From positions 1-22,972 of IMG/VR virus record IMGVR_UViG_3300020162_001647: a DNA stretch of 22,972 bases. One strand, given 5' to 3'. Source of the stretch: a virus. The translations under genes and the position numbers were made by a program. Below the pieces are notes generated by a model. That model was not told the DNA's origin and did not search any database. It saw nothing but the letters and a program-made list of their open reading frames with translations. Positions within the stretch are counted from its first letter, which is position 1. Every line of letters begins with the position of its first letter. This document shows positions 83 through 22,338 of this stretch, in pieces.

Positions 83-814
83 CTAATAGAACAGATAATC
101 GGCTATACCTACCTGTTTCATCTTGTAGCTATGTTCTTCTAATAGATCTCTATATAAGTCCTTTGTATAGTCTATATCGATTGTTCCGTTATGATCTTTC
201 CATGACTCTATAAGTAGAATAGGTCTACATCTCTTTATAGTCTCTTTACATCCATCTATGGCCTTTCTCTCATATCCTTCTATGTCTAGCTTTATAAAGT
301 CTACCTTAGTAAGATTTAATTCATCTATAGATATAAGTTCTACATCATATTGTTCTTCTTCTTTAGGATGCCATTCTCTATTGAAATGTTCTCCTATACT
401 ATTATCTTTTAATCCTGATGATCCTATATTACCTTCTGATATCCATCCCCATGTACTTATGCCTCTATTACTGGATAAGCCTCTATGGTCAAGTCTTACG
501 TTTGTACATCCATTTAGCTTTATATTCTCTCTCAATAGATCATAAGATGGTCTTAATGGTTCAAAGGCATATACCTTATCGGCTAGTTTAGATAGCTTTA
601 TAGTATGGATGCCTATATGAGCTCCTCCATCTATTGCTACCATATCCTTTGTTATACACTCTTCGAATACGTTTTGTATATTCTGCTCCCATATCGTACC
701 TTTCTTTACTTCATTACCTACAAAGCAGTCTTCATAAGTTTTAAAGTAAGCCGATTCATTACCGTAAAAGGTCTTGACTTCGTATATGTTAGGATCTACA
801 TTGTATTTACTCAT
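83..814 (-). CDS. FkbM family methyltransferase
   Basis: SAM-dependent methyltransferase of the FkbM family, which usually O-methylates sugars or similar small substrates. The 243-residue protein has a Rossmann-type SAM site AIDGGAHIG (about residues 60-68), an acidic strand end FEPLRP (84-89) and the family block KLDIEGYE (175-182) followed by a hydrophobic strand ending IES. The ATG at 814 lies about 10 bases after the conserved CGCGCAAATTT end of the structured element at 826-875, so the element forms its leader. Glycosyltransferase-like genes at 1740-3554 lie upstream in the same direction, so the substrate may be a glycan on the virion or host surface. Family is fairly sure; substrate is unknown. 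Confidence 0.88.
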   Translation of the reverse strand: MSKYNVDPNIYEVKTFYGNESAYFKTYEDCFVGNEVKKGTIWEQNIQNVFEECITKDMVAIDGGAHIGIHTIKLSKLADKVYAFEPLRPSYDLLRENIKLNGCTNVRLDHRGLSSNRGISTWGWISEGNIGSSGLKDNSIGEHFNREWHPKEEEQYDVELISIDELNLTKVDFIKLDIEGYERKAIDGCKETIKRCRPILLIESWKDHNGTIDIDYTKDLYRDLLEEHSYKMKQVGIADYLFY

Positions 815-7372: not shown

Positions 7373-7410
7373 ATACCTTAAGATACGGACACTTACGCAG
7401 ACTAGCAACT
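7373..7410 (-). promoter_or_regulatory. Promoter, Bacteroidota-like
   Basis: AGTTG, 20-base gap, TATCTTAAGGTA on the minus strand, nearly identical to the site at 7210-7246, including GCTAGTCTGCGTA just after the TTG box. Serves the 38-residue membrane protein gene. Confidence 0.75.
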
Positions 7411-7453
7411 ATTACACAAAATAAGTCACGGAAAACCTAAAGATTTTTCATTG

Positions 7454-7493
7454 AGAATCAATGAGTTATAACTTATTAAGAATCAATGAGTTA
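7454..7493 (-). repeat. Two copies of a 15-base repeat, TAACTCATTGATTCT
   Basis: Exact copies at 7454-7468 and 7479-7493 (minus-strand sequence), just after the stop of the GT2 gene and upstream of the promoter at 7373-7410. A third exact copy overlaps a stop codon at 10443-10457. The first copy extends into the hairpin CATTGA-TTC-TCAATG; the second can pair AACT..ATT with AAT.AGTT. Position at gene ends suggests an RNA 3' end, processing site or protein-binding site. No strong T tract follows. Confidence 0.6.
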
Positions 7494-7495
7494 GA

Positions 7496-8218: not shown

Positions 8219-8873
8219 CGTATATGATATATGAGTTGTTTTCTATCCAATCTCCGCAGTTTAAGTATCTGCTGCCATTTATAATCTTATCATCTGGATG
8301 GTGAATATGTCCACACATTACTGTCTTGCAATTGTGTTTAAGACCTTGTCTAACTATCTCTTCTTCAAAAGAAGTCATAAACTTAACAGCTTCCTTCACT
8401 TTACCTTTTAAGTACTTAGAGAAGCTTCTTTTATATCCCCAAGACTTTAATGTTCTGTCTATAGAGATAGCTAAATCATACCCTATACTTCCTAAGATGC
8501 CAAGCCATTTTAATTTAACAACTCCATCGTATAAGTCTCCATGAGTTATATAAGTATCTTTCCATATATATTCGTTATGTATCTCTATCTTACCAAAATG
8601 AATATCTTGGTAGTCTCTCATAAACTCATCATGATTACCGGGTATGTAAATAACCTTAGTCCCGTTTTTTGAGTAGGATAAGATCTTTCGAATTACATTG
8701 GTATGAGATTGTGGCCAGCGGAATTTACGCTTAAGTAACCACCCGTCAATAATGTCACCAACTAAAAATAGATATTCTGGCTGGTATTCTTTTAGTACAC
8801 TTAGTACTTGTTCTGCGTTAGATCCTTTAGATCCTAAATGAACGTCTGATATAAATAAAGCTTCTATCTTCAC
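8190..8873 (-). CDS. LpxH-like metallophosphoesterase
   Basis: Calcineurin-like phosphoesterase of the UDP-2,3-diacylglucosamine pyrophosphatase type (COG2908-like). In bacteria the relative cleaves the pyrophosphate of a lipid A precursor. All family motifs are present in 227 residues: DVH (D10, H12), GDIIDGW (39-45), GNHD (79-82), HGD (111-113), GHIH (188-191) and the C-terminal NCGDWIENNSYIIYDG block. The start is GTG at 8873, fixed by the N-terminal motif. Coupled to the GT2 gene. Its presence on a phage suggests change to lipid A or another diphospho-linked glycolipid; the substrate is inferred. Confidence 0.85.
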   Translation of the reverse strand: MKIEALFISDVHLGSKGSNAEQVLSVLKEYQPEYLFLVGDIIDGWLLKRKFRWPQSHTNVIRKILSYSKNGTKVIYIPGNHDEFMRDYQDIHFGKIEIHNEYIWKDTYITHGDLYDGVVKLKWLGILGSIGYDLAISIDRTLKSWGYKRSFSKYLKGKVKEAVKFMTSFEEEIVRQGLKHNCKTVMCGHIHHPDDKIINGSRYLNCGDWIENNSYIIYDGEYKVIKG

Positions 8874-8925
8874 TATGATAAATAGTATTCTTTATTTTAT
8901 CGTAAGTTCAATAAATTATTAAGAT

Positions 8926-9549
8926 CTATGACTTTATCATACAATATTTACCATATTCCGGAAATTGGAACTTAAAGAACTCTACGTTTTTATCTTTAAA
9001 GAATTCATTTATAGCAATAACTGCTCCAGGCCACTTTTTTCCTTCCCCGTATTCATCAAACAATACTAAACCCCCCGGGGTTACTTTATCGTATAATGTC
9101 TCTAATACTGTTTTATATGACTGATATAAGTCGCAATCAATATGTAAGATTGCTATAGCACTTCCTGAGTAATCCTTAGTAGTCTCTTCAAAGAAACCTT
9201 TAACTACCTCTACAGGCACATTAGCTCTTTCTCTAACCTTGTATGCTTCTTCTATCGGCCTAGCCCATTGTCCTTTTCTAGGGTTACGTTTAGAAGTATC
9301 TTCTTTACTTGGTTCTGGAAAGCCTTCAAAGGAATCGTATAAATGAATCGATCGTTGTCTAATGGTTCCATCTATCATCAAGTCTGTAAAGATATTAGCA
9401 GTTATTCCACCGCCAAAGCCGCATTCAACTAAACTACCTGGAAGATGATTTATTAACGGTAATACTTCTTTAAAGTATTCTCGGTAGTTATCTCGGTTGT
9501 CTTCAATTGGAGAAGCATTAATTTTCTTTTTGTCTACTACTGTTATCAT
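8926..9549 (-). CDS. TylF/MycF-like O-methyltransferase
   Basis: SAM-dependent methyltransferase of the macrocin O-methyltransferase family, which methylates sugar hydroxyls and needs Mg2+. 207 residues: VECGFGGGITANIF (41-54) is the SAM loop, HLYDSFEGFPEP (69-80) the characteristic family block, LHIDCDLYQSY (135-145) carries D138/D140 and VLFDEYG (162-168) carries D165, all fitting the metal site. It stands between small membrane protein genes and the phosphoesterase/GT2 pair, so a glycan target fits. Length is close to the family norm. Substrate unknown. Confidence 0.88.
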   Translation of the reverse strand: MITVVDKKKINASPIEDNRDNYREYFKEVLPLINHLPGSLVECGFGGGITANIFTDLMIDGTIRQRSIHLYDSFEGFPEPSKEDTSKRNPRKGQWARPIEEAYKVRERANVPVEVVKGFFEETTKDYSGSAIAILHIDCDLYQSYKTVLETLYDKVTPGGLVLFDEYGEGKKWPGAVIAINEFFKDKNVEFFKFQFPEYGKYCMIKS

Positions 9550-9554
9550 AATTT

Positions 9555-9722
9555 TTACTTTCTGCTTCTAAAAGCTGCTCCTAGAATTGATATAAGGAGA
9601 GATAATCCAAATGCCTGAGTCCAGGTAATTGGGTAGAATAATCCTACAGCCCAATGTATAAGAGTTAACTCTATAAACATAACGACTGCTATTAATGTAA
9701 GCGCTCCTATAACCTTTAACAT
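9555..9722 (-). CDS. Small membrane protein, two helices, 55 aa
   Basis: Two hydrophobic segments, about residues 3-22 and 31-49, separated by an aromatic turn (FYPITW), ending FRSRK. Start chosen at ATG 9722, one base after the upstream stop (TAA then TATG). An upstream in-frame ATG at 9755 would overlap the preceding gene by 32 bases. No family recognised; likely inner membrane. Confidence 0.6.
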   Translation of the reverse strand: MLKVIGALTLIAVVMFIELTLIHWAVGLFYPITWTQAFGLSLLISILGAAFRSRK

Positions 9723-9723
9723 A

Positions 9724-9906
9724 TTAGTCTTTTTTATCTTTTGATACTGCTCCAAATAAGAGCATAAATCCTAACATACCACTTATAGAAAAGCAGAAAG
9801 CTTCGTTCAAAGGTTGGATAGTTAAACCTGTGTTACCTGTTATCAACAAACCTGCCCATATAAAGGCAAGTATCGATCCGATTGCGTATAAAGTTCTTTG
9901 TTTCAT
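9724..9906 (-). CDS. Small membrane protein, two helices, 60 aa
   Basis: Hydrophobic segments at about residues 5-24 and 35-54, a basic start (MKQR) and a charged end (SKDKKD). A small two-pass inner-membrane protein of unknown role. It is followed immediately by another two-pass protein of similar size; the pair may function together. Confidence 0.6.
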   Translation of the reverse strand: MKQRTLYAIGSILAFIWAGLLITGNTGLTIQPLNEAFCFSISGMLGFMLLFGAVSKDKKD

Positions 9907-9928
9907 ATCTATAAATATTAGTGTTTAA

Positions 9929-10324
9929 TTAAGCTACATTCATTACAAAAGCCTTATCTGCCCAAGTCTTTGCTTTAACAGCAGCATATTGTAATTGACT
10001 ATATAAATTAGTTTTTAAGAAATAACAATTAATAGTACCAACTTCTAACTCAGCTAAGATCTCACTATCGATTAATACAACCTTCTTACCTTTCAAAGCA
10101 AATACTGTAAGCCAATGATCAGTTCCTTCTGGCTTAAATTCTACTGTCTGAAGAGCTCCTTTCTGGAAACTATTTAATACCTGAGCTCCAGATGTGTAAC
10201 GGCCTTTCGACTCTGCTACTGTAAAGAAACCAGCCTTACATTTAACTACTGCTCTAAATTCACCTTGACGTCCATTAATGAACTCTACTGTGTTAATTCC
10301 GATTGCATTGATGATGTTTTTCAT
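9929..10324 (-). CDS. Promoter-driven hypothetical protein, 131 aa
   Basis: Not recognised. Looks like a beta-rich domain (TVEFINGRQGEFRAVVKCKA near 12-31, WLTVFALKGKKVVLID near 81-96) with a C-terminal helix QLQYAAVKAKTWADKAF. It has its own promoter at 10377-10414 and the AAAGGTTATG start. Lack of a signal or membrane segment points to the cytosol. A role in host take-over would fit a small, separately promoted phage ORFan but is speculative. Confidence 0.68.
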   Translation of the reverse strand: MKNIINAIGINTVEFINGRQGEFRAVVKCKAGFFTVAESKGRYTSGAQVLNSFQKGALQTVEFKPEGTDHWLTVFALKGKKVVLIDSEILAELEVGTINCYFLKTNLYSQLQYAAVKAKTWADKAFVMNVA

Positions 10325-10376
10325 AACCTTTGTTTTTTATTGTTTAAGTATCGTTAAAGTATCTATCTCTCTAACA

Positions 10377-10414
10377 TACCTTAAGGTACGAACATTCGGC
10401 CAGAATTCCAACTA
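10377..10414 (-). promoter_or_regulatory. Promoter, Bacteroidota-like, with palindromic -7 region
   Basis: TAGTTG (TTG 10409-10411), 20-base gap, TACCTT (10383-10388) on the minus strand. The -7 region reads TACCTTAAGGTA, a perfect 12-base palindrome that could also be an operator. Drives the gene starting at 10324. The gene-free region 10325-10454 (130 bases) holds this promoter, its leader, part of the repeat and a small AAAGTA/TACTTT hairpin. Confidence 0.72.
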
Positions 10415-10442
10415 ATTCACAAAGTATTTTTTACTTTTATTC

Positions 10443-10457
10443 AGAATCAATGAGTTA
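10443..10457 (-). repeat. Third copy of the TAACTCATTGATTCT repeat
   Basis: Exact 15-base match to the two copies at 7454-7493. Here the TAA of the repeat is the stop codon of the 10455-10667 gene, and the repeat runs into the region before the next promoter, as at the other location. Confidence 0.55.
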
Positions 10458-10667
10458 TGCAGCGAATTCAGACTGCTTTATGTTGTAAAATTCTCTTAAA
10501 ATCGCCTGTTTTTCTAGTGCTATATTAGGATCTGTACCTAACCCGACTTCGAATCTAGTATAGATTTCTATCATTTTCTCACAAGCTTCAAACTGAAGTA
10601 TGTTACTTACTGATTGAATAGTCTTATAGACTTTCATAAATGCAGCTGTCTTTTTCTCGTTATTCAT
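10455..10667 (-). CDS. Hypothetical helical protein, 70 aa
   Basis: Not recognised. Nearly all-helical, with a Lys-rich start and segments MKVYKTIQSVSNILQFEACE and NIALEKQAILREFYN. It starts with the shared AAAGGTTATG context, 5 bases after the stop of the 10673-11092 gene. Its stop codon is part of the 15-base repeat. No membrane segment. Confidence 0.65.
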   Translation of the reverse strand: MNNEKKTAAFMKVYKTIQSVSNILQFEACEKMIEIYTRFEVGLGTDPNIALEKQAILREFYNIKQSEFAA

Positions 10668-10672
10668 AACCT

Positions 10673-11092
10673 TTATTTTTTAACTGTTAGTAATAATTTA
10701 TCTTCTACTATCTTAATATGAGTAACAATTCCTTCTAAACCACCACCAAAGTGACTCATATCAGTTCCTGTACTCATATAAGGTCCTCCTGAAGGATCAA
10801 ACATATCGATCGTATCCATATCCGATACAATTAATGGAGCGAATAATTTCATAATCCAATTCTTACCATCTCTCCATTCGTGGACTACTTCTTTAAACTT
10901 CTCTAAAGACATTGGAGTACCGTCTGGTTGTTCAAAGATTACATCACAATAAGCTTGGTATGCTTCTGTATAGATGTTTGGAAAGCCGTAGCGGCAGTAT
11001 TCTGGATTATACCCAGACATTACAATAGTATCTTCGTTTTGTTCGAAGACAATCTGATCGCGGTAGCGATTTACGTAAGTTTGTTTGATCAT
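10673..11092 (-). CDS. Promoter-driven hypothetical protein, 139 aa
   Basis: Not recognised. Aromatic N-terminal half (YNPEYCRYGFPNIYTEAYQA about 29-48), a Gly/Ser/Met-rich acidic loop (MDTIDMFDPSGGPYMSTG near 93-110) and a C-terminal beta strand with helix. It has its own promoter at 11113-11149 and the AAAGGTTATG start, forming a two-gene unit with 10455-10667. Probably cytosolic. Confidence 0.68.
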   Translation of the reverse strand: MIKQTYVNRYRDQIVFEQNEDTIVMSGYNPEYCRYGFPNIYTEAYQAYCDVIFEQPDGTPMSLEKFKEVVHEWRDGKNWIMKLFAPLIVSDMDTIDMFDPSGGPYMSTGTDMSHFGGGLEGIVTHIKIVEDKLLLTVKK

Positions 11093-11112
11093 AACCTTTA
11101 TCTTTTTAATTA

Positions 11113-11149
11113 TACCTTAAGATACGAATAATAAAGTTCTAAAGCAACT
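11113..11149 (-). promoter_or_regulatory. Promoter, Bacteroidota-like
   Basis: AGTTG (TTG 11145-11147), 20-base gap, TATCTTAAGGTA (TATCTT 11119-11124) on the minus strand. It sits about 20-30 bases before the gene start at 11092, with an A/T-rich leader and AAAGGTTATG. Confidence 0.75.
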
Positions 11150-11163
11150 CTTTTTTTCCGGAA

Positions 11164-11346
11164 CTAATCTTCATGAAAGAAATGATAAATAAAGACCGAT
11201 ACGATTATAGGCCAAAATATCACATTTCTAAATCTATCTGAAAAGGTCCAAGGAGGTCCTATTTGTCTAGCTGTAGTAAACCACTCTAGCCAAGATCCCC
11301 ATACCATACCTAAACAAAGGTAGTATACTACTAAATATTGTTCCAT
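11164..11346 (-). CDS. Small membrane protein, 60 aa
   Basis: Two hydrophobic, aromatic segments, about residues 4-23 (LVVYYLCLGMVWGSWLEWF) and 40-57 (NVIFWPIIVSVFIYHFF), with a polar connection. Likely a two-pass inner-membrane protein; no family recognised. It is the last gene before the promoter at 11113-11149. Confidence 0.6.
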   Translation of the reverse strand: MEQYLVVYYLCLGMVWGSWLEWFTTARQIGPPWTFSDRFRNVIFWPIIVSVFIYHFFHED

Positions 11347-11355
11347 AGTTTTAAG

Positions 11356-11589
11356 TTAAGCTGGCCATTTTCCTTTTGGACAGTTTTTTTGTTCTGGTGT
11401 TGCAGAAGTAAATACCTTACCTCTTAGTGGGCAGCCGCATGCATTACATACATCCATCCCAACACTATTTACTCCTCTATCTTCGCAAGTATCGCAAATC
11501 TTGTATCTAATCTCTGCTAATCTTTTTCGAATAGGGGAAGGATTTAATGCTGTTGACCAGGCTTCTACTATCTCAAAGATCTTATTCAT
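11356..11589 (-). CDS. Cys-rich zinc-ribbon protein, paralogue 1
   Basis: 77 residues with cysteines at 32, 35, 48, 51, 53 and 70 in the pattern CxxC, CxxCGCPLxGKxFT, then CPxGKW. The CGCPL...CPxxKW signature is one I associate with small phage zinc-ribbon proteins. The protein at 22057-22338 shares the whole layout, including a helix with NP and R-Y before the first Cys pair, so the two are paralogues. Probably binds zinc and protein or nucleic acid; the role is unknown. Confidence 0.72.
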   Translation of the reverse strand: MNKIFEIVEAWSTALNPSPIRKRLAEIRYKICDTCEDRGVNSVGMDVCNACGCPLRGKVFTSATPEQKNCPKGKWPA

Positions 11590-11590
11590 A

Positions 11591-11779
11591 TTAGTTAAAG
11601 ATTACAATTTGTTCTTCTGTTGATGGATTCTGTAAACGTTTCTTAATTGATCGTCCTCTAGGGGCTGATTTCAATCTCTCATATGTAATATCTTCTAATA
11701 CAATATGGTGACCATACTCTACTATATCTGCGATTTTAGGAGAGATTCTGGTTGAGGCTACATAATAACTTTTTTTCAT
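11591..11779 (-). CDS. Hypothetical protein, 62 aa
   Basis: Not recognised. Basic, with a beta strand start (KSYYVASTRISPKIAD) and a basic helix (RGRSIKKRLQNPS, about 42-54). No signal peptide or membrane segment. One base separates it from the zinc-ribbon gene downstream. Confidence 0.6.
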   Translation of the reverse strand: MKKSYYVASTRISPKIADIVEYGHHIVLEDITYERLKSAPRGRSIKKRLQNPSTEEQIVIFN

Positions 11780-11796
11780 AACTGATTTTGGTTTGT

Positions 11797-12399
11797 TTAA
11801 ATGTTCTGCTCTTGATATAATTTTTGATACTTCTTAGCCATTTGTTTATAATTCATTCTAAACGTATCTGGCATAGCATCGTAAATTGCTTGGTTTCTAT
11901 AAGGAGAGTTACCTGGCTTACTCCACTTTCTGGAATAATACATCCAGTTATAAAACTGAACATATGCATTTGCTCTCTTAATATAATCTTTAATATCGAT
12001 AGGTAAGTTCCATTGCTTAATTAGTTTAACTGAGCGTTTCTCATTGTCTAATTCAAGGTCTCTACTACTATCTATATGCTGTTTAATATTCTTCTTTCTC
12101 TTACCGGCTAACCAATCTTCTAGATGGCCGATACCTTCACATCCTTCTTCCCATTCTTTACATCCTTCCGCCCATTGTGTTAAGTGACCATATTCATGAA
12201 CTAGTAAACCTAACCAGGCATCTTCGTTCTTAGTCGCTACAACCAACTTCCTTTCTTCTGAGTCGAAATAGCCTCCGCATTTGATATTACCTGTAAGTAA
12301 TAGAAATTTGACTGGCCTTAGTTGTAGCTTTATTTTATGCTTTTTACACTCTGCTTTAACATGTTCGATAAATGCTTGAACGTTCGGATTATTTAACAT
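11797..12399 (-). CDS. Zincin-like putative metallopeptidase
   Basis: 200 residues. LLVHEYGHLTQW carries HEYGH (68-72), the HExxH zinc and catalytic motif. A later helix rich in acids (DLELDNEKRSVKL, about residues 109-121) could supply the third, Glu ligand as in gluzincins. A Cys/Glu-rich insert lies between them. No signal peptide, so it acts in the cytosol or is packaged in the virion. Possible roles are cutting a host or phage protein. Promoter-like boxes lie at 12420-12447. Motif is certain, activity inferred. Confidence 0.68.
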   Translation of the reverse strand: MLNNPNVQAFIEHVKAECKKHKIKLQLRPVKFLLLTGNIKCGGYFDSEERKLVVATKNEDAWLGLLVHEYGHLTQWAEGCKEWEEGCEGIGHLEDWLAGKRKKNIKQHIDSSRDLELDNEKRSVKLIKQWNLPIDIKDYIKRANAYVQFYNWMYYSRKWSKPGNSPYRNQAIYDAMPDTFRMNYKQMAKKYQKLYQEQNI

Positions 12400-12419
12400 A
12401 AACTAAGATTATATTAATA

Positions 12420-12447
12420 AATATAAGGAATCTTAGCTTCTCTACAA
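12420..12447 (-). promoter_or_regulatory. Weaker promoter-like site
   Basis: TTG (12445-12447), 19-base gap, TATATTTA (12418-12425) on the minus strand, fitting the general Bacteroidota TTG/TAnnTTTG pattern but not the exact repeated sequence. Lies about 20 bases before the zincin gene. Confidence 0.4.
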
Positions 12448-12448
12448 A

Positions 12449-12766
12449 CTATTTGATGTAGATGTATTCCACTCGCTTTAGCTTTCTATCCATCTCCTCT
12501 TCTTCTTTCCATTCCTTAATTACTTCTAGGGCTTTATATCGAGTAGTAAAAACAAAGTCACTGTAGACCCATTCGCGTAATACTTTTCCGTTGAATACTT
12601 TCCTCATAGGGACATAAATACGATGTCCGGAAGGGGTGTACTTAATTGCAATCTTATACTTGTCATGACCTACTACTATCTCTTCAACTCTATCTTTGAA
12701 ACTTAGAGTTTGTGCTACAACATTGCTTACGAAAAAAAAACTTAGAATTGTTAATAACTTCTTCAT
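12449..12766 (-). CDS. Secreted hypothetical protein, 105 aa
   Basis: The N-terminus is a standard signal peptide: MKK, a hydrophobic core LLTILSFFF, and a likely cut after VVA (residue 18). The mature part is basic and beta-like (HRIYVPMRKVFNGKVLREWV about 49-68) with a Lys/Glu-rich helix near the end. No lipobox, so probably a free periplasmic protein. Lies in the run that also holds an NlpC/P60 hydrolase, so an envelope or lysis role is possible. Confidence 0.65.
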   Translation of the reverse strand: MKKLLTILSFFFVSNVVAQTLSFKDRVEEIVVGHDKYKIAIKYTPSGHRIYVPMRKVFNGKVLREWVYSDFVFTTRYKALEVIKEWKEEEEMDRKLKRVEYIYIK

Positions 12767-12772
12767 ATTATT

Positions 12773-13027
12773 TTATTTGTTTATATTTGTATACTCTATA
12801 TTGCCAACTAGCTGATAAGCTTCCCACATCTTTTCTAAAGCTTCCTGTATCAGTTCACCAACTTCTTGATAATTCTCTGTAAACGGATGCTGTAATGCAT
12901 GATCATTTATCGTATTCATCATTACATAAAGCCTATCCATTAATTCTATAGAGTGACCTGGGTTTAGTTCATTAAGTGGTTTTGGATCAAATTCAGGACC
13001 AAAATCTAGTTGTAATTGTGTTGACAT
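12773..13027 (-). CDS. Hypothetical protein, 84 aa
   Basis: Not recognised. Polar N-terminus (QLQLDFGPEFDPKPLNELNP) followed by two helices (SIELMDRLYVMMNTINDHAL; YQEVGELIQEALEKMWEAYQ). Acidic, no membrane segment. Four bases separate it from the upstream gene stop and six from the secreted protein gene. Confidence 0.62.
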   Translation of the reverse strand: MSTQLQLDFGPEFDPKPLNELNPGHSIELMDRLYVMMNTINDHALQHPFTENYQEVGELIQEALEKMWEAYQLVGNIEYTNINK

Positions 13028-13031
13028 TTAC

Positions 13032-13424
13032 TTAGTATTTAATAAGTTGGTAATTGCTATTTTTAGTTTCAAAAGTTATAACTCCTTCTTCATTTTCTGT
13101 AAAAGAGTTCATAGCAGAGGTTAACCATGTATATGTACCGTAACGAGGATCTACTACTAAACTAGCTCCTACTAGTGGATTATCATGATGCTGTTTATAA
13201 CTTCCATTTTCATTCCATTCTAACCAGAGTACTTTTTTACCCGTTACTGTTAGATTGTCACTAGATCGAATAAGCTTATACTTGTAAGAGGGCTTACCTC
13301 CATGCTCTTCGCAATACAAGTCTTCAGTCATTCCTTCAGAAATAATCCTATTACATTTATGGCAGAGAGTTGCTCCTCTTCCTCCGTTAAATTTATGAAT
13401 AGGTTTAATCTTACTCTGTTTCAT
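13032..13424 (-). CDS. Hypothetical protein with N-terminal zinc finger, 130 aa
   Basis: Residues 18-41 carry CHKC, then C and H (CHKCNRIISEGM...YCEEHGG), a likely single zinc site. The rest is beta-rich (KVLWLEWNENGSYKQHHDN, SLVVDPRYGTYTWLTSAMNS, VITFETKNSNYQLI), reading as a small barrel-like domain. No family recognised. It overlaps the upstream Rz-like gene by 14 bases. Confidence 0.65.
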   Translation of the reverse strand: MKQSKIKPIHKFNGGRGATLCHKCNRIISEGMTEDLYCEEHGGKPSYKYKLIRSSDNLTVTGKKVLWLEWNENGSYKQHHDNPLVGASLVVDPRYGTYTWLTSAMNSFTENEEGVITFETKNSNYQLIKY

Positions 13425-14020: not shown

Positions 14021-14491
14021 TTATTTTAAACGTCCAAATCCTCTTATTGATTTTTTATATCTAGGTTCTGCTAAACTACTTACCTTAACTCCTTCGTATC
14101 TATTTGATGCATGAAAGAACATTGTGTTACCAATATATAGTCCGCAATGCCATCCACTAGGTGAAACTTTACTTCTGAAGAATACTAAATCTCCAACCTG
14201 TAAACTATCTTGTTTAATTCTTTGAGTCTGTTCCCATTGCTTATAAGCTACATTCTCTAAGTCTTTATTGTAAACATCTTTGTAAAGACGTTTTGTTAGT
14301 TGTGAGCAATCAATTCCCTTATCAGTTCTTCCGCCTAGTTTATAAGGCTTTCCAATCCACTGTAGCATAAAATTATTCAAGATACTATCTGTTGTTAATA
14401 CATCTTCAATACCGCCTGTTGCTCTGCTTGTCTGTGCTTTACCTACTCCACCTAGTAGAATAAGTATAGCTATTATTATTACCTGTTTCAT
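14021..14491 (-). CDS. Secreted NlpC/P60 family peptidoglycan hydrolase
   Basis: Cysteine endopeptidase-type protein that cuts cell-wall peptide stems. 156 residues: signal peptide with core VIIIAILILLGG and likely cut after KA (residue 19), then one NlpC/P60 domain. GKPYKLGGRTDKGIDCSQL holds the nucleophile C62, WHCGLYIGN the base H115, and MFFHASN the third residue H127. GDLVFFRS is the usual strand before the His. A signal peptide is unusual for a classical endolysin; it suggests Sec-dependent export for lysis or wall remodelling. No separate wall-binding domain. Confidence 0.88.
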   Translation of the reverse strand: MKQVIIIAILILLGGVGKAQTSRATGGIEDVLTTDSILNNFMLQWIGKPYKLGGRTDKGIDCSQLTKRLYKDVYNKDLENVAYKQWEQTQRIKQDSLQVGDLVFFRSKVSPSGWHCGLYIGNTMFFHASNRYEGVKVSSLAEPRYKKSIRGFGRLK

Positions 14492-15149: not shown

Positions 15150-15187
15150 ACACTTAAGATACGAAAAAATATGATAGGAAACAACTA
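15149..15187 (-). promoter_or_regulatory. Promoter, Bacteroidota-like, abutting a start codon
   Basis: TAGTTG (TTG 15182-15184), 20-base gap, TATCTTAAG (TATCTT 15156-15161) on the minus strand. Only GTGT separates TATCTTAA from the ATG at 15149, predicting a leaderless or near-leaderless message. It overlaps the last codon and stop of the sulfotransferase gene by three bases. Confidence 0.7.
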
Positions 15188-15748
15188 TATTAAAGTTCTC
15201 TTTTCCTCCATACTGCTCTTTCTATACTTATTTCGACTATCAAGTATAAAGCGAAATGATTTACTAGATATACCAATATACTCATCTACCCTATCTTTAT
15301 CTATTCCGGAAATATAAAGGTCTTCGTATTTGACTGTAAATTCGTTAAAGTTTTTCGCTTCGTCTGCTCTATCTCTAAACTTCGTATAGGCTTTCTGATA
15401 ATCCTCTTCTGTGCTAGTAGTTTGGTTATAGACATAAGGAGCATGCCAGTCAACAGATTTTGTCGCATGAGCATAACTCTCTGCTTGCTCTTTTATATTC
15501 TCTCTAAAAAGAACTACTATCTTATCAAATTTTTTTTTAATCTCTTCGTACTGGAAGACACCTTGTCCGAACATCATTTTAACTACTACGTTATCTCTCT
15601 CCCAAATATCAAATTCAGTTATATCTTTATCCCAAAACCGTTGTTCATTATAAGGTTCTATAATTTCTCTATAGTGTAAAGAGTTTGCAATATAATGCGT
15701 TAGGTTGTTAGAACCTGTTCTCGGTAAAGCATAGATTAGTATTCGCAT
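15185..15748 (-). CDS. Sulfotransferase-like protein, short
   Basis: PAPS-dependent sulfotransferase fold: MRILIYALPRTGSNNL has the 5'-phosphosulfate loop PRTGSNN (9-15), and KIVVLFRENIKEQAESY has the 3'-phosphate site with R82 and S91. At 187 residues it is shorter than typical enzymes and has a small C-terminal part. It overlaps the SET gene by 13 bases. A second sulfotransferase lies at 18120-18824, so this region may sulfate one product at two positions or two acceptors. Acceptor unknown. Confidence 0.78.
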   Translation of the reverse strand: MRILIYALPRTGSNNLTHYIANSLHYREIIEPYNEQRFWDKDITEFDIWERDNVVVKMMFGQGVFQYEEIKKKFDKIVVLFRENIKEQAESYAHATKSVDWHAPYVYNQTTSTEEDYQKAYTKFRDRADEAKNFNEFTVKYEDLYISGIDKDRVDEYIGISSKSFRFILDSRNKYRKSSMEEKRTLI

Positions 15749-16122
15749 ATAGATTTGCCGAAGTTTTTATAATTCACATCCGTAAACCCTATTCTGTAAT
15801 AGCTGCCTCTAGGTCTTCCTAGTTTATGTTCAACAACATCGTAACTAACTGTAATTTCGTCTCCTATGTCGATAGGTCTATTAGCGTACAGGTCATAGCC
15901 GGATTCGGTTTGCACTAATGTAGCGTTAGGTCGTTCACTATGATTACAAAACCTACCCAAAAGCTCACTTTCCCATAGAGTATCTGTAAGTTGGCTTCCT
16001 ACTTTGTTAGGTTTATTTTGTATGTAAACTCCTATTAAGTCTTCTGTATCAAAGTTTGTATTTGAAAAAACCCCAGTTCCTCTTCCTTGCAGTACTATAA
16101 GTACAAATTTACTAACTTCCAT
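15736..16122 (-). CDS. SET-domain protein (putative protein lysine methyltransferase)
   Basis: 128 residues, a minimal SET domain without pre- or post-SET regions. GRGTGVFSNTNF (13-24) fits the opening strand, RFCNHSERPNA (57-67) the NHSxxPN SAM/pseudoknot block, and IGDEITVSYD (86-95) the second pseudoknot block with catalytic Tyr94. Such proteins transfer methyl from SAM to lysine side chains. It overlaps the halogenase gene by 11 bases and the sulfotransferase by 13, so it is translated with them. Target may be a phage or host protein, perhaps a product of this cluster. Confidence 0.83.
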   Translation of the reverse strand: MEVSKFVLIVLQGRGTGVFSNTNFDTEDLIGVYIQNKPNKVGSQLTDTLWESELLGRFCNHSERPNATLVQTESGYDLYANRPIDIGDEITVSYDVVEHKLGRPRGSYYRIGFTDVNYKNFGKSICEY

Positions 16123-17641
16123 AAGCTACTTGTATGTTATCTATAGAGTTTTCTTTAACTCTGTTAATATTGTCGAGTAATTGTTGCTTAAATGTTGCTA
16201 ACTTTCTATCTAACTCTAGTACTTTATTTTCTTCTTTTACTAAAGCCAGGTCAAGATTACCTATACCGGCCCCTACTAAGTACCAGCTATACATATCAAA
16301 AGAAGGTGATGGTGCCATTAGAGCTAAATCTCCATTCTTAGGGGGTCTAGCTTTCCATAAATCTAGTAGTTTCTGCAACCTGTCTGGTGTTTCTGTTCTT
16401 GTACTATAAGTTTTCCAAAATTCTGTATCCTTTCTTTTAGACATATAATGATAATATATAAAATTCATACATTCTTCATTCAAATCTGCCTGTGCTTTAT
16501 TATATAAATCTCTACTTGTTTGGCTATCTAGTGACATAGTTGTTGGATCTAAAGTAAATAAAGACGATATAGCTATCATAATAGATGTTGCTTCTAAAGG
16601 TTCTGTAAACCCTGATGATAATCCTATAGCAATACAGTTCTTTTTCCAGACTTCTTTATACCGTCCTGCTTTAAATGTGAATACCTTATTACTCTCAATA
16701 GAGTGACCTAAAAGTTCTTCAACTTCTGCTTTTGCTTGGGTTTGATCTATAAATCGATCGTCGTATATATATCCACATCCCCATCTACCTTTAACAGGTA
16801 TTTGCCACATCCAGCCATATTTCATTGCAATTGATCGCGTTTCTGGTCTAATAATTTTTTCTGTCTGTGGTAGGAAAAAGGGTATAGCTGAGTTTACAGT
16901 TAAGTATTTCTCATATGATATCCATTCTGTGTTGTATGTTTTACCTATTAATAATCTCTGAAATCCGGTGCAGTCAAATACAAAATTACTTTTAAAATAT
17001 CTTCTGTCTTTTAATAAAATACCTTTTATAAAATCTTCTTGATCTAGGTCAGCTTTATCAAACTCACCATCAATAACTTTGATACCTCTAGATTCTCCAA
17101 TCTTACGTAAATAGTCTGCTACTTTTCTAGCATTAAAGTGAAAAGAGAATGAGGTTGAGCTTTGAATTTGACCTCCTACATTGTAGTAAGGGCTTTTCTT
17201 ATTTATAATCAAATTATTTGTAGGGAGTACTTCGTCTAAAAGCTGTTCGTTAGCTATTGCATTTAAAATATAGTATGCAGAATTTGTATTAGGTATTCCT
17301 TCTTTTGAACTAATATTTAAAGCGTTTAGCTGTACAAAATCTAAAGGAGCTCCAAAAATAGAAGTGAACGGATGTAAGTAACTCTTACCATCCCCATTCC
17401 AATTCTCAAAATTGATACCTAGTTTAAATGTAGCATCACATTTATCTTTAAAGTCTCCTAAGTCTATACCTAAACTTTTAATAAATATTGGGAAAAGAGG
17501 TACAGAACCTTCTCCAGCTCCTAAAATACCTATAGAAGTACTTTCTATTAAGGTTATTTCAGCTTTATTAAATAACTGTTTTACTTGTAAAGCTGTCAAC
17601 CATCCTGCTGTTCCTCCTCCTACTATAACTATTTTTTTCAT
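16112..17641 (-). CDS. Flavin-dependent halogenase (tryptophan halogenase, PrnA-like)
   Basis: 509 residues, normal length for the family. Uses FADH2, O2 and halide to halogenate an aromatic substrate. Motifs in order: FAD-binding GGGTAGW (8-14), GAGEGSVP (41-48, corresponding to GVGEATIP), ATFKLG with the presumed catalytic K73, FDCTGF (222-227), the diagnostic WxWxIP as WMWQIP (277-282), and GFTEPLEATS (344-353) with the second active-site Glu region. Related genes are known from marine phages. Overlaps on both sides tie it to the SET and oxygenase genes. A FAD reductase is not in view. Free Trp or a peptide/protein Trp could be the substrate. Confidence 0.9.
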   Translation of the reverse strand: MKKIVIVGGGTAGWLTALQVKQLFNKAEITLIESTSIGILGAGEGSVPLFPIFIKSLGIDLGDFKDKCDATFKLGINFENWNGDGKSYLHPFTSIFGAPLDFVQLNALNISSKEGIPNTNSAYYILNAIANEQLLDEVLPTNNLIINKKSPYYNVGGQIQSSTSFSFHFNARKVADYLRKIGESRGIKVIDGEFDKADLDQEDFIKGILLKDRRYFKSNFVFDCTGFQRLLIGKTYNTEWISYEKYLTVNSAIPFFLPQTEKIIRPETRSIAMKYGWMWQIPVKGRWGCGYIYDDRFIDQTQAKAEVEELLGHSIESNKVFTFKAGRYKEVWKKNCIAIGLSSGFTEPLEATSIMIAISSLFTLDPTTMSLDSQTSRDLYNKAQADLNEECMNFIYYHYMSKRKDTEFWKTYSTRTETPDRLQKLLDLWKARPPKNGDLALMAPSPSFDMYSWYLVGAGIGNLDLALVKEENKVLELDRKLATFKQQLLDNINRVKENSIDNIQVAYGS

Positions 17642-18120
17642 ATTAAAGTCTTTCCTTGTTTATTAATATATGGATTTTCTGTTAAAAAAGCAACTAAGGT
17701 ATACCTTATTCCTTCCGTTACTGGAAGTATTTTATGTTCTAAATCAGGGCTAAAGACTAAAGAAGTGTTACTAAGAGGTTGTATTATATTAATATTCTCG
17801 TCTTTATATTCAAACTCTCCTCCTGTAAAATCTTCGTTAAGGAAGCATACTAAGTTTTCTCTATAAATTTGATTATGTCTATGGTAGTCGTCGATTACTT
17901 TTATACTAGTATCTATGCGCTGAACTCTAAGTATATCGACAGTCCCTAGTATGTTATGCTCCTTGAAAGCTTTTTCTATTCTAACCTGTAGACTTCCTTG
18001 AACGTGGTTTGATTTGAAAGCATAGATAGTATCATTTACTCTCCTATAACTACTTTTTTTAGCAAATTCATAAATTTCTAGGAATAACTCTTGTTCAAAA
18101 AACTGATTATATACTCTCAT
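17638..18120 (-). CDS. 2OG-Fe(II) oxygenase (prolyl-4-hydroxylase-like), altered metal motif
   Basis: 160 residues with the double-stranded beta-helix blocks of P4H-type dioxygenases: DYHRHNQ, then LVCFLNEDFTGGEFEY (90-105), TSLVFSPDLEHKILPVTEG (119-137) and GIRYTLVAFL. Distal H129 and 2OG-binding R139 are in place. The usual HxD is replaced by H80-R-H82-N83, so the carboxylate ligand is missing or supplied elsewhere. Loss of that Asp is a feature of Fe/2OG halogenases such as SyrB2, but they have Ala or Gly there. Coupled by 1-base and 4-base overlaps to the genes on either side. Confidence 0.8.
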   Translation of the reverse strand: MRVYNQFFEQELFLEIYEFAKKSSYRRVNDTIYAFKSNHVQGSLQVRIEKAFKEHNILGTVDILRVQRIDTSIKVIDDYHRHNQIYRENLVCFLNEDFTGGEFEYKDENINIIQPLSNTSLVFSPDLEHKILPVTEGIRYTLVAFLTENPYINKQGKTLI

Positions 18121-18824
18121 TATATTAGAGTATTATTACTTTTATATATAGGATCTACCCATTTATAGTAGAACTCTCTCAATTCTTCTGTAGGTTTTAA
18201 ATTTGTTTTTTCTGTCTTTGTATGGTTTGATATAATGAGTTCATAGGATATGTCCACAGTCTCCTTGACATACTTTTCTAAACTTCCTAAATTTTTAAAA
18301 TCAAAGTAAAGAATGTCTGAGTTATTTTCATGCCATCTAGAAGGTCCTGAAAGTGTTTGTGAGAATACAGAATAAAAGTTTAATTTTAAAGGAATCGATC
18401 GCCCTACAAGTTGTGTTATAAAGGTAGTTATTTTTTCTGACTCATTTACTTGGGCAGAATATCCTAGTACTTCAATCCAAGCTTCTATAAAAGTCCTATT
18501 GTCTACCTGTTTTAGTATTTGAGCTGCTTCGTAATCTATAGTTTGCAAGCATTTTATACAGTATTTCCAAGCAGAAATAAACCGATCTAATTCATCTCGC
18601 TTAATTGCTACAATCGGGTAAGTGTATCCAAATACTTCTCGAATAAGACTAACCGGTTCATGAGAGTGTCCTAAAGGAGACTCTCCTGTAGCAGCTCTTT
18701 TATGTGTAAGTAGTTGATCTGTAGGGTACTTAACTTCTAGATTTGCAAGAAAACATGACCGTTCAAAAGATGTTGTCCCAGTTCTAGGTATTTTTAAAAA
18801 TAAAAACTTATTTCCGACTAACAT
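18120..18824 (-). CDS. Sulfotransferase family protein
   Basis: 234 residues. FLFLKIPRTGTTSFE (7-21) is the PAPS 5'-phosphosulfate loop with K11/R14/T17-S19, and PIVAIKRDELDRFISAWKYC (70-89) the 3'-phosphate site with R76 and S84. The middle holds a likely acceptor loop with HSHEP. No membrane anchor, so cytosolic, unlike Golgi-type relatives. Its stop overlaps the oxygenase start by one base. Together with the 15185 gene it indicates that sulfation is part of this cluster's chemistry. Confidence 0.85.
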   Translation of the reverse strand: MLVGNKFLFLKIPRTGTTSFERSCFLANLEVKYPTDQLLTHKRAATGESPLGHSHEPVSLIREVFGYTYPIVAIKRDELDRFISAWKYCIKCLQTIDYEAAQILKQVDNRTFIEAWIEVLGYSAQVNESEKITTFITQLVGRSIPLKLNFYSVFSQTLSGPSRWHENNSDILYFDFKNLGSLEKYVKETVDISYELIISNHTKTEKTNLKPTEELREFYYKWVDPIYKSNNTLI

Positions 18825-18971: not shown

Positions 18972-20897
18972 TTATGCTTTTTTCTCAAAATTATGTACAA
19001 CAAATTTGTTAGCTATAAACGTGTGAGTTTCTTCTACTGTAATATTATATACAATTCCTTGATATGGTTCTAATTCTAGTTTTTCTATTAACTTCCATTC
19101 ACCGTTAACATTAACATATTTACCGTTTATTTCTTCCAGTTTTTCTAAAATAATATCTTTCCCCACTGCAAACTCTTCTGTACTATTAGGATCGTATGCA
19201 GCAAAGGTAATTGTACCTTCTATGTCTTTAATTGCAAAAGGATGTCCTATTGTAGCTTTTGTCTTAATCCCATTTATAATTACTAAACTACTGTCATATT
19301 CAGATTTCCAAAGACCTGTTACTTTTCTTGTTACTATGTTATTTGTATGTACATCGTAGGAATCTACAAGATCTCCAATTTGTATATCTTTAATTTGCTT
19401 CGTTCCTTCTGCTGTCTCAACAGTAGTATCCCCCACAAAACAACCCCCAGTGCAAGCGACGCAAAAACTTTCGCAGTACCAGGTTCCACAGTTCCACCCG
19501 TTGCAATAACAAGGGTTGTGTTGCACTAAAGCAATACTTTGTTCTTCATTTAAGATTGATAAAAATATATCCTGCTCTTCAACATTTACTTCATATATAA
19601 CTTTTGTATCAAAATTAACACCTAACTCTGTAACTTCTCTTTTTTCTAACTCATTTGTATTATGGTTAACTACTATTATTTTATCTCCTAAAACTACCTG
19701 TGCTAGGGCTTTAAATTGTGTTTCAGTACTTCCGCTTCTTTCTACGTATGTGGTAGATCTAACTGAATCATCCCAATTTGTACCGTCTTCTAATGTAACA
19801 TTTATATAGACTCCTTCATAGCTTGCGCTGTACAAGTCTACTACTTGTGCTGTATTAATAGTAAGACTATCATGCATTTCTTGGAAAGATGAAGTATGTG
19901 CAAAAACATCAACAAAAGAGCCTGTTGGGAAGTTACTAAAGTCTGCTGATTTAACAAGTAGCCCTTGGTAGAGTTGAGATGGTAGTAGGTACTCTCCATT
20001 TGCTGCTACTACCTTTGTTTCATCGTCTAAGTGGTACCATCTTGTTTGATTACCTACAGGTTTTGTTAACCACTTTTGTCTAGATTTATTAGTCATTCTT
20101 GTAGTACTGTCGATATATTCGTTAGGCCATATATCTGTACTAATCAATGAGCTTTGATGATAAGAACCTAGGTGCATTACTTCTAGAGTGCTTCCGTACA
20201 CTAAGTCAAAAGATCTTATTATTGCGTACTTACCTTGTATCTTATTATTATCAGAATTAATAAACTCCTGTAAGTAGTAATCAGCTTCGTAAGTTTCTTT
20301 TAATTCTTGCAATTGTTCATTAGTTGTAACATTATGTACTTCCGGGTAACGGTTTGTATCATATCCAGGATTTTTTGCTTTTACAACAATATTTGGTTCT
20401 TTAGGTACTAGAGTATTTAATGTATTGATGTTGTGTAAGGTAGATATCGCAAATGTGCCTACTGTGTAGGCTTCGTCTTTAATTAATTCTTGTAAGTTTA
20501 ACTTATCTGCACAATACTCATCATCAATCAAAGCAGTTGAATCGAAAGCTTGTCTAAATATTAATTTATTAGGGGTATCTTCTATATACGGAACAGTAGT
20601 TGCATTCACATTTACCTGGTAAGGTGTGTATGTTATTCCTAATGTTTGACAAATTGCCTGCAATCTACTCCCGATTGATATATTTATACGGAAATTAGGA
20701 TCTACAACTGTTTGTTCGTTACTGAAGATATATACAACCTCGTTTATTGAGTTTTGTTCAATTAATTCTGTAACCGGTGAGAAGTCTAAATGAGGAAGCA
20801 TACTTTGGTATACGCTTGCATTTGTATTCATCTCTAAAATCTTTGCATTTCCGTTATCATCTAACAAAAAATCGCTTCCTATTAAAACAGCTTTCAT
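18972..20897 (-). CDS. ATP-grasp-like / Cys-Trp-rich / Hint autoprocessing protein
   Basis: 641 residues. Residues 6-30 (IGSDFLLDDNGNAKILEMNT and onward) look like the terminal Mg-binding block of an ATP-grasp enzyme, here at the N-terminus. Residues 110-250 carry further ATP-grasp-like elements (KLIFRQAFDS, NIVVKAKNPGYD, YYLQEFI, YAIIRSFD). Residues 398-461 (VLGDKIIVVNHN...VIYEVNVEEQDIF...ALVQHN) resemble the end of a degenerate Hint domain. Residues 462-485 form a Cys/Trp-rich stretch ending TGG. A full Hint domain follows: C486-FVGDTTV, TIGHPF with H552, and terminal VVHN (N636) before FEKKA. Hint domains cut their own backbone at Cys. An in-frame stop upstream supports this start. Confidence 0.75.
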   Translation of the reverse strand: MKAVLIGSDFLLDDNGNAKILEMNTNASVYQSMLPHLDFSPVTELIEQNSINEVVYIFSNEQTVVDPNFRINISIGSRLQAICQTLGITYTPYQVNVNATTVPYIEDTPNKLIFRQAFDSTALIDDEYCADKLNLQELIKDEAYTVGTFAISTLHNINTLNTLVPKEPNIVVKAKNPGYDTNRYPEVHNVTTNEQLQELKETYEADYYLQEFINSDNNKIQGKYAIIRSFDLVYGSTLEVMHLGSYHQSSLISTDIWPNEYIDSTTRMTNKSRQKWLTKPVGNQTRWYHLDDETKVVAANGEYLLPSQLYQGLLVKSADFSNFPTGSFVDVFAHTSSFQEMHDSLTINTAQVVDLYSASYEGVYINVTLEDGTNWDDSVRSTTYVERSGSTETQFKALAQVVLGDKIIVVNHNTNELEKREVTELGVNFDTKVIYEVNVEEQDIFLSILNEEQSIALVQHNPCYCNGWNCGTWYCESFCVACTGGCFVGDTTVETAEGTKQIKDIQIGDLVDSYDVHTNNIVTRKVTGLWKSEYDSSLVIINGIKTKATIGHPFAIKDIEGTITFAAYDPNSTEEFAVGKDIILEKLEEINGKYVNVNGEWKLIEKLELEPYQGIVYNITVEETHTFIANKFVVHNFEKKA

Positions 20898-20942: not shown

Positions 20943-21536
20943 CTAAATAAGTCTAGTTATGTTGAAACTAATATTAGAACATAAAGCAATACGCTCTTCT
21001 TTAGAACAAGGTGATAGGTTTGGCTTATGCTGTATGTCTCCTTTAAAAATAAATATATCTCCTTCTTGAGGGACTATATTAACAATCTTATTGCTTTTAT
21101 CCATAAGTGAAAGAGCTCCTTCTGTGCCTTGTAGGTCTTTAGGTACTTGTATATACACACAGTATGTCCAGCTTGTAAGTATGGGAGCATTAATAGGGCT
21201 ATCTGGGAAGTTTATAGCTGCTTTATGTGCATGCCAATTTTGAGAGGGAGCTATAGAATCTGCTCGCTGTATATAGCTCCAAGTCTTTTCTACCCAACTC
21301 CCGTCCCAGTCTTCCGGAATACCTGGTAGGTTTTTTGTAATACTGTACCCAAGCTTCTTTATATGGTCTAACTCTGGAGATTGAAGTTTTACTTCAGTAG
21401 TATTAACATCAGTTAAACCTAGTAAAAAGTTATTCTGTTTTATCCTCCGTATAATACTTTCTTTTGAAAATTTCCAGTCGTATACCCCTTTGTAAATTTC
21501 TAAACTATCCGTTAATCTCAACCTCTGAATTATCAT
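20943..21536 (-). CDS. Putative 2OG-Fe(II) oxygenase
   Basis: 197 residues. The C-terminal half fits the phage-type 2OG-Fe(II) oxygenase fold: SWTYCVYIQVPKDLQGTEGA (122-141), IVPQEGDIFIFKGDIQHKPN (154-173) with the distal H170, and ERIALCSNISFNI with R182 for 2OG. The proximal metal motif may be WHAHK (H102/H104), again without the classical HxD. Overlaps the next oxygenase-like gene by 4 bases, so the two are coupled. Substrate unknown. The first 80 residues are not recognised. Confidence 0.72.
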   Translation of the reverse strand: MIIQRLRLTDSLEIYKGVYDWKFSKESIIRRIKQNNFLLGLTDVNTTEVKLQSPELDHIKKLGYSITKNLPGIPEDWDGSWVEKTWSYIQRADSIAPSQNWHAHKAAINFPDSPINAPILTSWTYCVYIQVPKDLQGTEGALSLMDKSNKIVNIVPQEGDIFIFKGDIQHKPNLSPCSKEERIALCSNISFNITRLI

Positions 21537-22060
21537 AATAGTGATTTAGTTAATTTTTGAGGTAGTCCTACAAAGATAGTAAATGTTAATCTTCCATTTT
21601 CTATACAGTCACCAAAAGGTTCTTCTATTGAATGTAAAATTCTAGATGGGTAAAAAGCTAATCTGTTGTAAACATTATCTACTCTGTGTATAGGTCTGTA
21701 ATCGTCATCATAAAAAACTGTACCGGAATTAGGTGGGGGTGTTGGTGTAAGATAGATGACTCCCGCATAATCTATTCTTGAGTCTCTATGTATTTTACTC
21801 TTATTATAGTCGGGTGTATTTTTCGTATCTTTCAAAGAATAGTGAAAATATGTATCAAAGTTACTATTGTAAAAAGATCCGTCTAGTCTTTCTTTTAAAA
21901 GCTCTACTAACTTGTCATTATATACCGATTGTTCTAATGCTCGAAAACCTTTCCATCCAGTATTTTCATCTGATGCAGTATATTTCATCCCCAATGCCAT
22001 TGCTCTAATAGCATCTGGTTTAAGTAAGAAGTTATCAATTTGTATGATCTGATCTATCAT
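21533..22060 (-). CDS. 2OG-Fe(II) oxygenase-like protein (DUF6445-like)
   Basis: 175 residues. KIHRDSRIDYAGVIYLTPTP (89-108) holds the classical HxD (H91, D93), NSGTVFY follows, and RLAFYPSRILHSIEEPFG (133-150) holds distal H143; R157 in GRLTFTIFVG is well placed for 2OG. The layout matches DUF6445, as I recall it. Unlike the two neighbouring oxygenases it keeps the Asp ligand. Coupled by 4-base overlaps to genes on both sides. Probably hydroxylates a peptide or small molecule made here. Confidence 0.8.
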   Translation of the reverse strand: MIDQIIQIDNFLLKPDAIRAMALGMKYTASDENTGWKGFRALEQSVYNDKLVELLKERLDGSFYNSNFDTYFHYSLKDTKNTPDYNKSKIHRDSRIDYAGVIYLTPTPPPNSGTVFYDDDYRPIHRVDNVYNRLAFYPSRILHSIEEPFGDCIENGRLTFTIFVGLPQKLTKSLL

Positions 22061-22338
22061 AAGGTAGTTTTCTCTTTTTTTATAAACTTAGATAAATATT
22101 TTTCTTCTACATCTTTCCACTTTTCTAACGGGCATCCATTATACTTTGGTGTAAATATCTTACCCTGTAATGGACATCCACATTCAGAGCAATGTTCGGT
22201 CCATTTTTTCTGTAGCAGTAAGTTAGACCTAGAAGGACATTCTTCACAGATTGCATATCTCTCTATAGCTAATTGCTGCTGAGTTAGAGTAGGGTTCTTT
22301 TTAATAATCCAAGCAGAAATAATCTCTTTTATATCCAT
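22057..22338 (-). CDS. Cys-rich zinc-ribbon protein, paralogue 2
   Basis: 93 residues. Cysteines at 31, 34, 50, 53, 55 and 69 in CxxC, CSECGCPLQGKIFTP and CPLEKW, the same order and spacing style as the protein at 11356-11589. Residues 1-30 form a helix with the shared NP...A..RY.IC lead-in, and a Lys-rich tail follows the last Cys. Binds zinc by inference. It is translationally coupled to the oxygenase-like gene at 21533. Confidence 0.72.
   Translation of the reverse strand: MDIKEIISAWIIKKNPTLTQQQLAIERYAICEECPSRSNLLLQKKWTEHCSECGCPLQGKIFTPKYNGCPLEKWKDVEEKYLSKFIKKEKTTL

Follow-up and report, generated by a model that had tools for sequence, protein, structure and literature searches.

The gene at positions 18972-20897 (minus strand) of the analysed DNA, a complete IMG/VR record of 22,972 bases that is probably a genome fragment and is called the window below, encoded a 641-residue Hint protein, which was found to belong to a previously undescribed family carried by many aquatic phages. 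Five parts were distinguished in the protein, namely an ATP-grasp domain, a first Hint domain (Hint-A), a Cys-rich peptide, a second Hint domain (Hint-B) and a terminal FEKKA, and this anatomy was well supported by sequence comparison and structure models. As for its function, we give about even chances to the reading, built on sequence and modelled structure, that the protein serves as a phage-encoded self-processing carrier or precursor, in which Hint-A would free the six-Cys peptide and Hint-B would trim or re-ligate the C-terminus.

Domain organization of the window protein

The five parts were assigned as follows, with the basis of each assignment in brackets.

20037..20897, minus strand, residues 1-287: permuted ATP-grasp domain of the glutathione/glutathionylspermidine synthetase type (AF2, Foldseek, VIA)
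19515..20036, minus strand, residues 288-461: Hint-A, a C1-less Hint fold (AF2, VIA, conserved His-Asn)
19443..19514, minus strand, residues 462-485: peptide with six Cys and two Trp, PCYCNGWNCGTWYCESFCVACTGG (Cys pattern kept by family members)
18990..19442, minus strand, residues 486-636: Hint-B, a canonical Hint/BIL-like domain (Pfam PF14890, NCBIfam TIGR01443)
18972..18989, minus strand, residues 637-641: FEKKA and stop, a Lys-containing C-terminus (relatives without Hint-B)

The residues named in a preliminary description of this DNA were all found at the positions given there (C463, C465, C470, C475, C479 and C482; W468 and W473; G485-C486; H460-N461; N636-F637). Every Cys, both His-Asn pairs and C486 were kept in relatives at 77% and 57% identity, which indicated that these features were not due to chance. 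For the window protein, an AF2 model was built from a 45-sequence alignment and reached a mean pLDDT of 78; Hint-A and the ATP-grasp domain were assigned their folds on the basis of AF2 models.

Distribution of the family

Three overlapping sets of viral relatives were collected: 107 with a sub-alignment of residues 100-260, 99 with an alignment of the degenerate Hint domain plus tail, and 199 contig stretches with a more divergent front alignment. For the His-Asn and Cys counts, 97 distinct sequences were used. Most members had about 495 residues and ended right after the peptide. No member was detected in two scans of 84,980 bacterial and archaeal genomes. With the front and with two further members as queries, tblastn gave no relative in 50,697 phage records, and the matches that tblastn produced in cultured phages were confined to Hint domains belonging to unrelated proteins. 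Three large contigs carried a T4-type major capsid gene, indicating that the carriers are tailed phages. An earlier description of the family was not found in the literature searched, which largely left aside subscription papers.

An ATP-grasp domain of the glutathione synthetase type

The front of the protein had been described as ATP-grasp-like, and Foldseek and VIA searches with the AF2 model identified a real ATP-grasp fold. When residues 1-287 were modelled alone (pLDDT 87, pTM 0.83), the top matches were yeast glutathione synthase (Foldseek 4.1e-6) and glutathionylspermidine synthetases (Foldseek 4e-6 to 6e-6 for the group as a whole), with VIA Z scores of 9-10 and a best of 10.3, followed by TTL and RimK (Z about 6). 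The permuted strand order was the same as in glutathionylspermidine synthetase (GspS), residues 1-281 of the model matching 310-608 of the E. coli enzyme. The candidate Mg/ATP ligands D9, E22, N24, K132, K173, E211 and R228 were invariant in 45/45 family sequences, and D9, E22 and N24 may be equivalent to the GspS Mg ligands D318, E330 and N332, an equation made through residue offsets rather than alignment. The family ATP-grasp profile found nothing in the PDB by hmmsearch. Residues 1-287 are presumed to have ATP-grasp activity.

Hint-A, a Hint fold that keeps its terminal His-Asn

The preliminary description had taken residues 398-461 for the end of a second, degenerate Hint domain, stopping at HN461. 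Its Hint origin was supported; the limits had to be widened, as 288-461 form a complete Hint domain. In the AF2 model a Hint fold covered residues 285-464 with pLDDT mostly 80-93, and Hint-A superimposed on the NpuDnaB intein with a VIA Z of 16.4 (1.9 A over 139 residues). Residues 1..440 of the Mtu RecA intein corresponded to 289..461 of the model, which places His289 in the C1 position and makes N461 the terminal Asn. Sequence profiles did not reveal the domain: comparison of residues 283-461 with Hint-B gave no significant match (one comparison aligned only the tail), Pfam searches of 45 members detected a Hint domain only in the four bearing Hint-B, and the Hint-A family profile met only chance antibody matches in the PDB by hmmsearch. 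Hint-A being invisible to sequence-only methods, its assignment rests on the AF2 model and the fold search.

In the family alignment, position 1 of Hint-A was His in 43/45 and Ile in 2/45 sequences, the block-B His was absent and replaced by Ser or Cys, and block-F position 13 (F:13) was Asp443 in 45/45 rather than His. The terminal His460-Asn461, by contrast with these lost residues, was kept in 97/97 distinct sequences, and its His and Asn codons differed synonymously among relatives, so that selection acts on the residues. Asn cyclisation uses the F:13 His, the G:6 His and the G:7 Asn, and the F:13 His normally assists the reaction (PMC4031507). Hint-A thus lacked the C1 nucleophile and the block-B His of an N-cleaving Hint of the intein or Hedgehog type, and loss of the C1 nucleophile ruled out N-side cleavage by this residue. 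The penultimate His and terminal Asn of a C-cleaving Hint were present without the block-F His, and the modelled domain is therefore one in which C-side cleavage is possible, minus one usual helper residue. Given the lost block-B and block-F His, Hint-A could be a structural relic, and its His-Asn could be kept for folding.

The six-Cys peptide

A discrete Cys/Trp-rich peptide between two Hint domains had been claimed, and residues 462-485 agreed with this, their pattern being conserved in the family. The idea that the peptide might be freed was strengthened as well, since some 100 distinct phage proteins, the majority lacking Hint-B, kept the peptide together with the His-Asn that precedes it. 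Most members stopped about 25-33 residues after the invariant His-Asn, and exactly six Cys lay within the first 34 tail residues in 82/97 distinct sequences; the commonest tail resembled SCWCPWNYCGHWCNSWYCPGCGGGGFEKA. The residue after His-Asn was variable and mostly small (S, G, A, T or P). Members without Hint-B had C-termini such as ..CGGGGFEKA, ..GRFAKR and ..ERFAKA. The tail alone matched no solved structure.

A divergent clade (L167, L168, L171, L172 and L186) kept the ATP-grasp domain, Hint-A, His-Asn and the Cys-rich tail; its loci had no halogenase nearby and instead carried a series of consecutive 2OG oxygenase genes, and the tails of L167, L168, L171 and L172 contained no Trp.

Hint-B, a Hint/BIL-like domain at the end of the peptide

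The proposal of a canonical Hint domain starting at C486 was confirmed by Pfam, NCBIfam and PDB sequence matches. Residues 486-636 matched Intein_splicing (PF14890) at 2.3e-12, over the cut-off, as well as PT-HINT (Pfam, 1e-6) and the NCBIfam model TIGR01443 intein_Cterm (1.3e-6), and the PDB sequence matches were bacterial intein-like domains, the best being Tetrahymena BIL2. The motif residues were C486, T549xxH552, H625 and H635-N636, with Phe637 at +1. Hint-B was carried by six proteins (the window protein, L001, L002, L005, L213 and L170), which were monophyletic with support of 100/98, most simply explained by one gain. No endonuclease was present. The +1 residues of the six copies were F, F, M, F, M and N; since Cys, Ser or Thr never occurred there, a canonical (class 1) splicing intein was rejected. 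With its His-Asn and no +1 nucleophile, Hint-B corresponds in sequence to the bacterial intein-like domains. In L213, F:13 of Hint-B was Gln.

Hint-B lay between the peptide and the Lys-containing end (..CVACTGG|FEKKA), and its removal restored the usual C-terminus of the family. Cleavage rather than classical splicing had been expected. Because the insertion of Hint-B splits a conserved C-terminus (..GG|FEKKA, compared with ..GGGGFEKA in relatives), ligation of the kind known from bacterial intein-like domains is as plausible as plain cleavage. A product ending in a Gly thioester had also been foreseen; Hint-B being a late insertion in one clade, such a product is not the general output of the family.

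A self-processing domain of another kind was observed on the contig of L016 (the same contig as L120), where an S74-like self-cleaving chaperone domain followed the six-Cys tail at 9162-9401 (Pfam S74 0.0012, below the cut-off; PHROG 6121 1.4e-8). It started at the spot equivalent to that of Hint-B (..CTGGFK|SDISFKEN). That self-processing domains of two unrelated kinds occupy this position suggests, from this one contig, that the C-terminus of the tail must be regenerated.

It is improbable that Hint-B represents a decaying, selfish mini-intein of one clade, with no biological role, in a protein that works with or without its removal. Its restriction to one clade and the missing +1 nucleophile and endonuclease would fit such an element, whereas C1, TxxH and His-Asn were kept in 6/6 copies although these have diverged deeply (about 50-77% identity), and the domain lies precisely at the boundary with the conserved end that follows it.

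Neighbouring genes

The family gene was surrounded by a cassette of putative modification genes. Neighbour counts refer to the 39 loci with enough flank, which are fragments and include related contigs that are not independent. The genes of the window were as follows.

15185..15748, minus strand: P-loop sulfotransferase-like (cluster 5), ends KRTLI (a family member weakly matches Stf0 sulfotransferase; 38/39 loci)
15736..16122, minus strand: SET-domain gene (Pfam SET 4e-9)
16112..17641, minus strand: flavin-dependent tryptophan halogenase (Pfam Trp_halogenase 1.5e-108; 33/39 loci)
17638..18120, minus strand: 2OG-Fe(II) oxygenase (cluster 1), ends GKTLI (PHROG 61 1.3e-10; 38/39 loci)
18120..18824, minus strand: sulfotransferase-like (cluster 2), ends NNTLI (Sulfotransfer_2 0.0039, below cut-off; 39/39 loci)
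20943..21536, minus strand: 2OG-Fe(II) oxygenase-like (cluster 3), ends ITRLI (Pfam/PHROG; 39/39 loci)
21533..22060, minus strand: DUF6445/2OG-like gene, ends TKSLL (Pfam DUF6445 1.3e-14)
22057..22338, minus strand: small CxxC protein (cluster 4), ends KTTL (PHROG 13558; 35/39 loci)

The window halogenase had the marks of a flavin-dependent tryptophan halogenase, with the FAD motif GGGTAGW, an aligned catalytic Lys and WMWQIP. This Lys was aligned in all halogenases compared, and WxWxIP was intact in the window gene. Most relatives' halogenases (L006-L083, cluster 6; about 418 residues) were without about 50 residues after Pfam model position 97, and in many of them WMF replaced WMW in WxWxIP, the window clade having the full-length form. 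The SET-domain gene adjoined the halogenase mainly in the window's clade.

By locus, a Trp-containing tail occurred with a halogenase in 33 cases and without one in 10, and a tail without Trp in 3 cases without and 0 with a halogenase (Fisher p 0.019, a value confounded by phylogeny and by related contigs that are not independent). Trp-less tails were limited to one clade, in which no halogenase lay nearby. This co-occurrence is suggestive of the tail being the halogenase substrate.

The protein might instead belong to the virion or its assembly, the ATP-grasp domain and Hint-A serving mainly as folds, the six-Cys tail as an attached disulfide- or metal-bound knob, and Hint-B or S74 as a C-terminal maturation domain. 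In several loci the family gene stands upstream of a long tail-fibre-like gene (cluster 13), the S74 domain after the tail in L016 is typical of tail fibres, and Hint-A has lost several catalytic residues. The invariant candidate ATP-grasp ligands and HN461, on the other hand, suggest retained chemistry, and the immediate neighbours are mostly modification enzymes, not structural genes; we put the odds of a virion role at about one half of those given to the self-processing precursor.

A C-terminal tag shared by the cassette enzymes

Unrelated enzymes of the cassette were found to end alike, approximately in K-x-S/T-L-I. This tag was present in 219/361 unique cassette ends compared with 3/225 other genes of the same loci, about 1% being expected from composition. 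In the window the tagged genes were 15185-15748, 17638-18120, 18120-18824, 20943-21536, 21533-22060 and 22057-22338, and in L167 nearly all genes of 7255-13244 bore the tag or a close variant. The codons for Ser/Thr, Leu and Ile and the stop varied freely, from which it follows that the tag is a peptide motif, and a DNA signal was disfavoured by the same synonymous variation. In Syn10, HTVC008M and S-H38, the halogenase and 2OG genes that were examined did not bear the tag. It is proposed to be a docking tag.

A rival reading of the protein is that of an amide-forming enzyme: the ATP-grasp domain would join a carboxylate, such as the C-terminus of a tagged enzyme or the Lys-Leu end of the peptide, to an amine, with the Cys peptide as mobile arm or acceptor, and Hint-B could transfer what lies upstream of it to a Lys, as does BIL2 of Tetrahymena BUBL1, an isopeptide-forming ubiquitin-dispensing platform (PMC8616854). 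The closest folds of the front (glutathione and glutathionylspermidine synthetases, then TTL and RimK), BIL2 as the closest solved relative of Hint-B, a Lys a few residues past Hint-B in 6/6 copies and the tag common to cassette enzymes are in its favour. We nevertheless regard this activity as rather unlikely, the 287-residue domain being smaller than glutathione synthetase (GSS) and GspS and without part of their substrate-binding region.

Proposed processing of the protein

For a self-processing precursor the following course can be proposed. Without an N-terminal nucleophile, Hint-A would not cleave on its own N side; Asn cyclisation at its His-Asn would cut the junction between N461 and the peptide and so free the latter. 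Before or after release, the peptide would be the probable substrate of some neighbours, namely the tryptophan halogenase, the 2OG-Fe(II) oxygenases and the sulfotransferases. In the window clade, Hint-B, inserted between the peptide and the Lys-containing end, would remove itself, either by double cleavage (hydrolysis of the C486 thioester and cyclisation of N636), leaving a peptide that ends in Gly-Gly, or by ligation as in bacterial intein-like domains, giving a peptide that ends in Gly-Gly-FEKKA. Sequence and predicted structure bear out the domain anatomy, the conservation, the insertion site and the gene neighbourhood; both cleavages and the modification of the peptide are presumed. The ten Trp-containing loci without a nearby halogenase speak against a self-processing precursor, and it is not obvious what the ATP-grasp domain would contribute if the peptide is simply released.

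Extended to the whole cassette, this would amount to a phage-only peptide-maturation pathway: the precursor self-processes, halogenase, hydroxylase, sulfotransferase and sometimes radical-SAM enzymes with the shared docking tag decorate the core, and Asn cyclisation releases the peptide. We hold this full pathway to be tentative, with a little over one chance in four.

Comparison with known systems

Like Hint-B, the BIL domains and the Tetrahymena BUBL loci (BIL2, PDB 6tmm/6y75) have a Hint fold with C1, TxxH and His-Asn and no Cys, Ser or Thr at +1, and their Hint domains are fused to a small protein whose last residue is Gly. The phage cargo, in contrast, is a six-Cys peptide of 24-33 residues behind an ATP-grasp domain and a C1-less Hint, and most phage relatives have the C1-less Hint only. 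With glutathione and glutathionylspermidine synthetases and YgiC/YjfC, the front shares the permuted order and may share Mg/ATP ligands; however, it is shorter than GSS and GspS, fused to Hint-A and the peptide, and has no detectable sequence similarity to them.

RiPP precursors acted on by flavin-dependent peptide halogenases also have a C-terminal Cys/Trp-rich peptide encoded next to tailoring enzymes, among them a halogenase and 2OG oxygenases. Here the "leader" is a 461-residue ATP-grasp-Hint protein and release would use Hint instead of a protease; the likeness of the phage peptide to modified RiPP cores is one of genomic association only. Cyanophage halogenase clusters (VirX1 of Syn10; PMC7824862) likewise contain a group of adjoining 2OG oxygenases together with a Trp halogenase, but the cultured-phage loci examined were without the family protein and without the C-terminal tag, and no convincing equivalent was seen among Cys-rich or HN-ending proteins near the cyanophage halogenases. 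A review read these halogenase/2OG clusters as capsule decoration or secondary metabolism (PMC7824862), and another, of the characterised viral halogenase VirX1, listed no biosynthetic cluster for it (PMC8407142).

If the proposed processing is true, a Hint domain would have been kept across many phages solely for C-terminal release of a small peptide, within a phage-encoded ribosomal-peptide pathway. One class of viral tryptophan halogenases would gain a concrete candidate native substrate, and the tag common to the cassette enzymes would represent a novel means of marking a set of modifying enzymes.

Further genes of the loci

SGNH-hydrolase-like, radical-SAM-like, APS kinase and nucleotidyltransferase-like genes were recurrent in the loci. 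APS-kinase-like and cytidylyltransferase-like genes (clusters 10 and 9) recurred upstream of the family gene (L005, L008, L017 and others) and could supply activated sulfate to the sulfotransferase-like genes. Just outside the cassette, 14021-14491 of the window encoded a small protein whose start resembles a signal peptide and whose Cys/His pattern, noted by eye, is suggestive of an NlpC/P60 peptidase.
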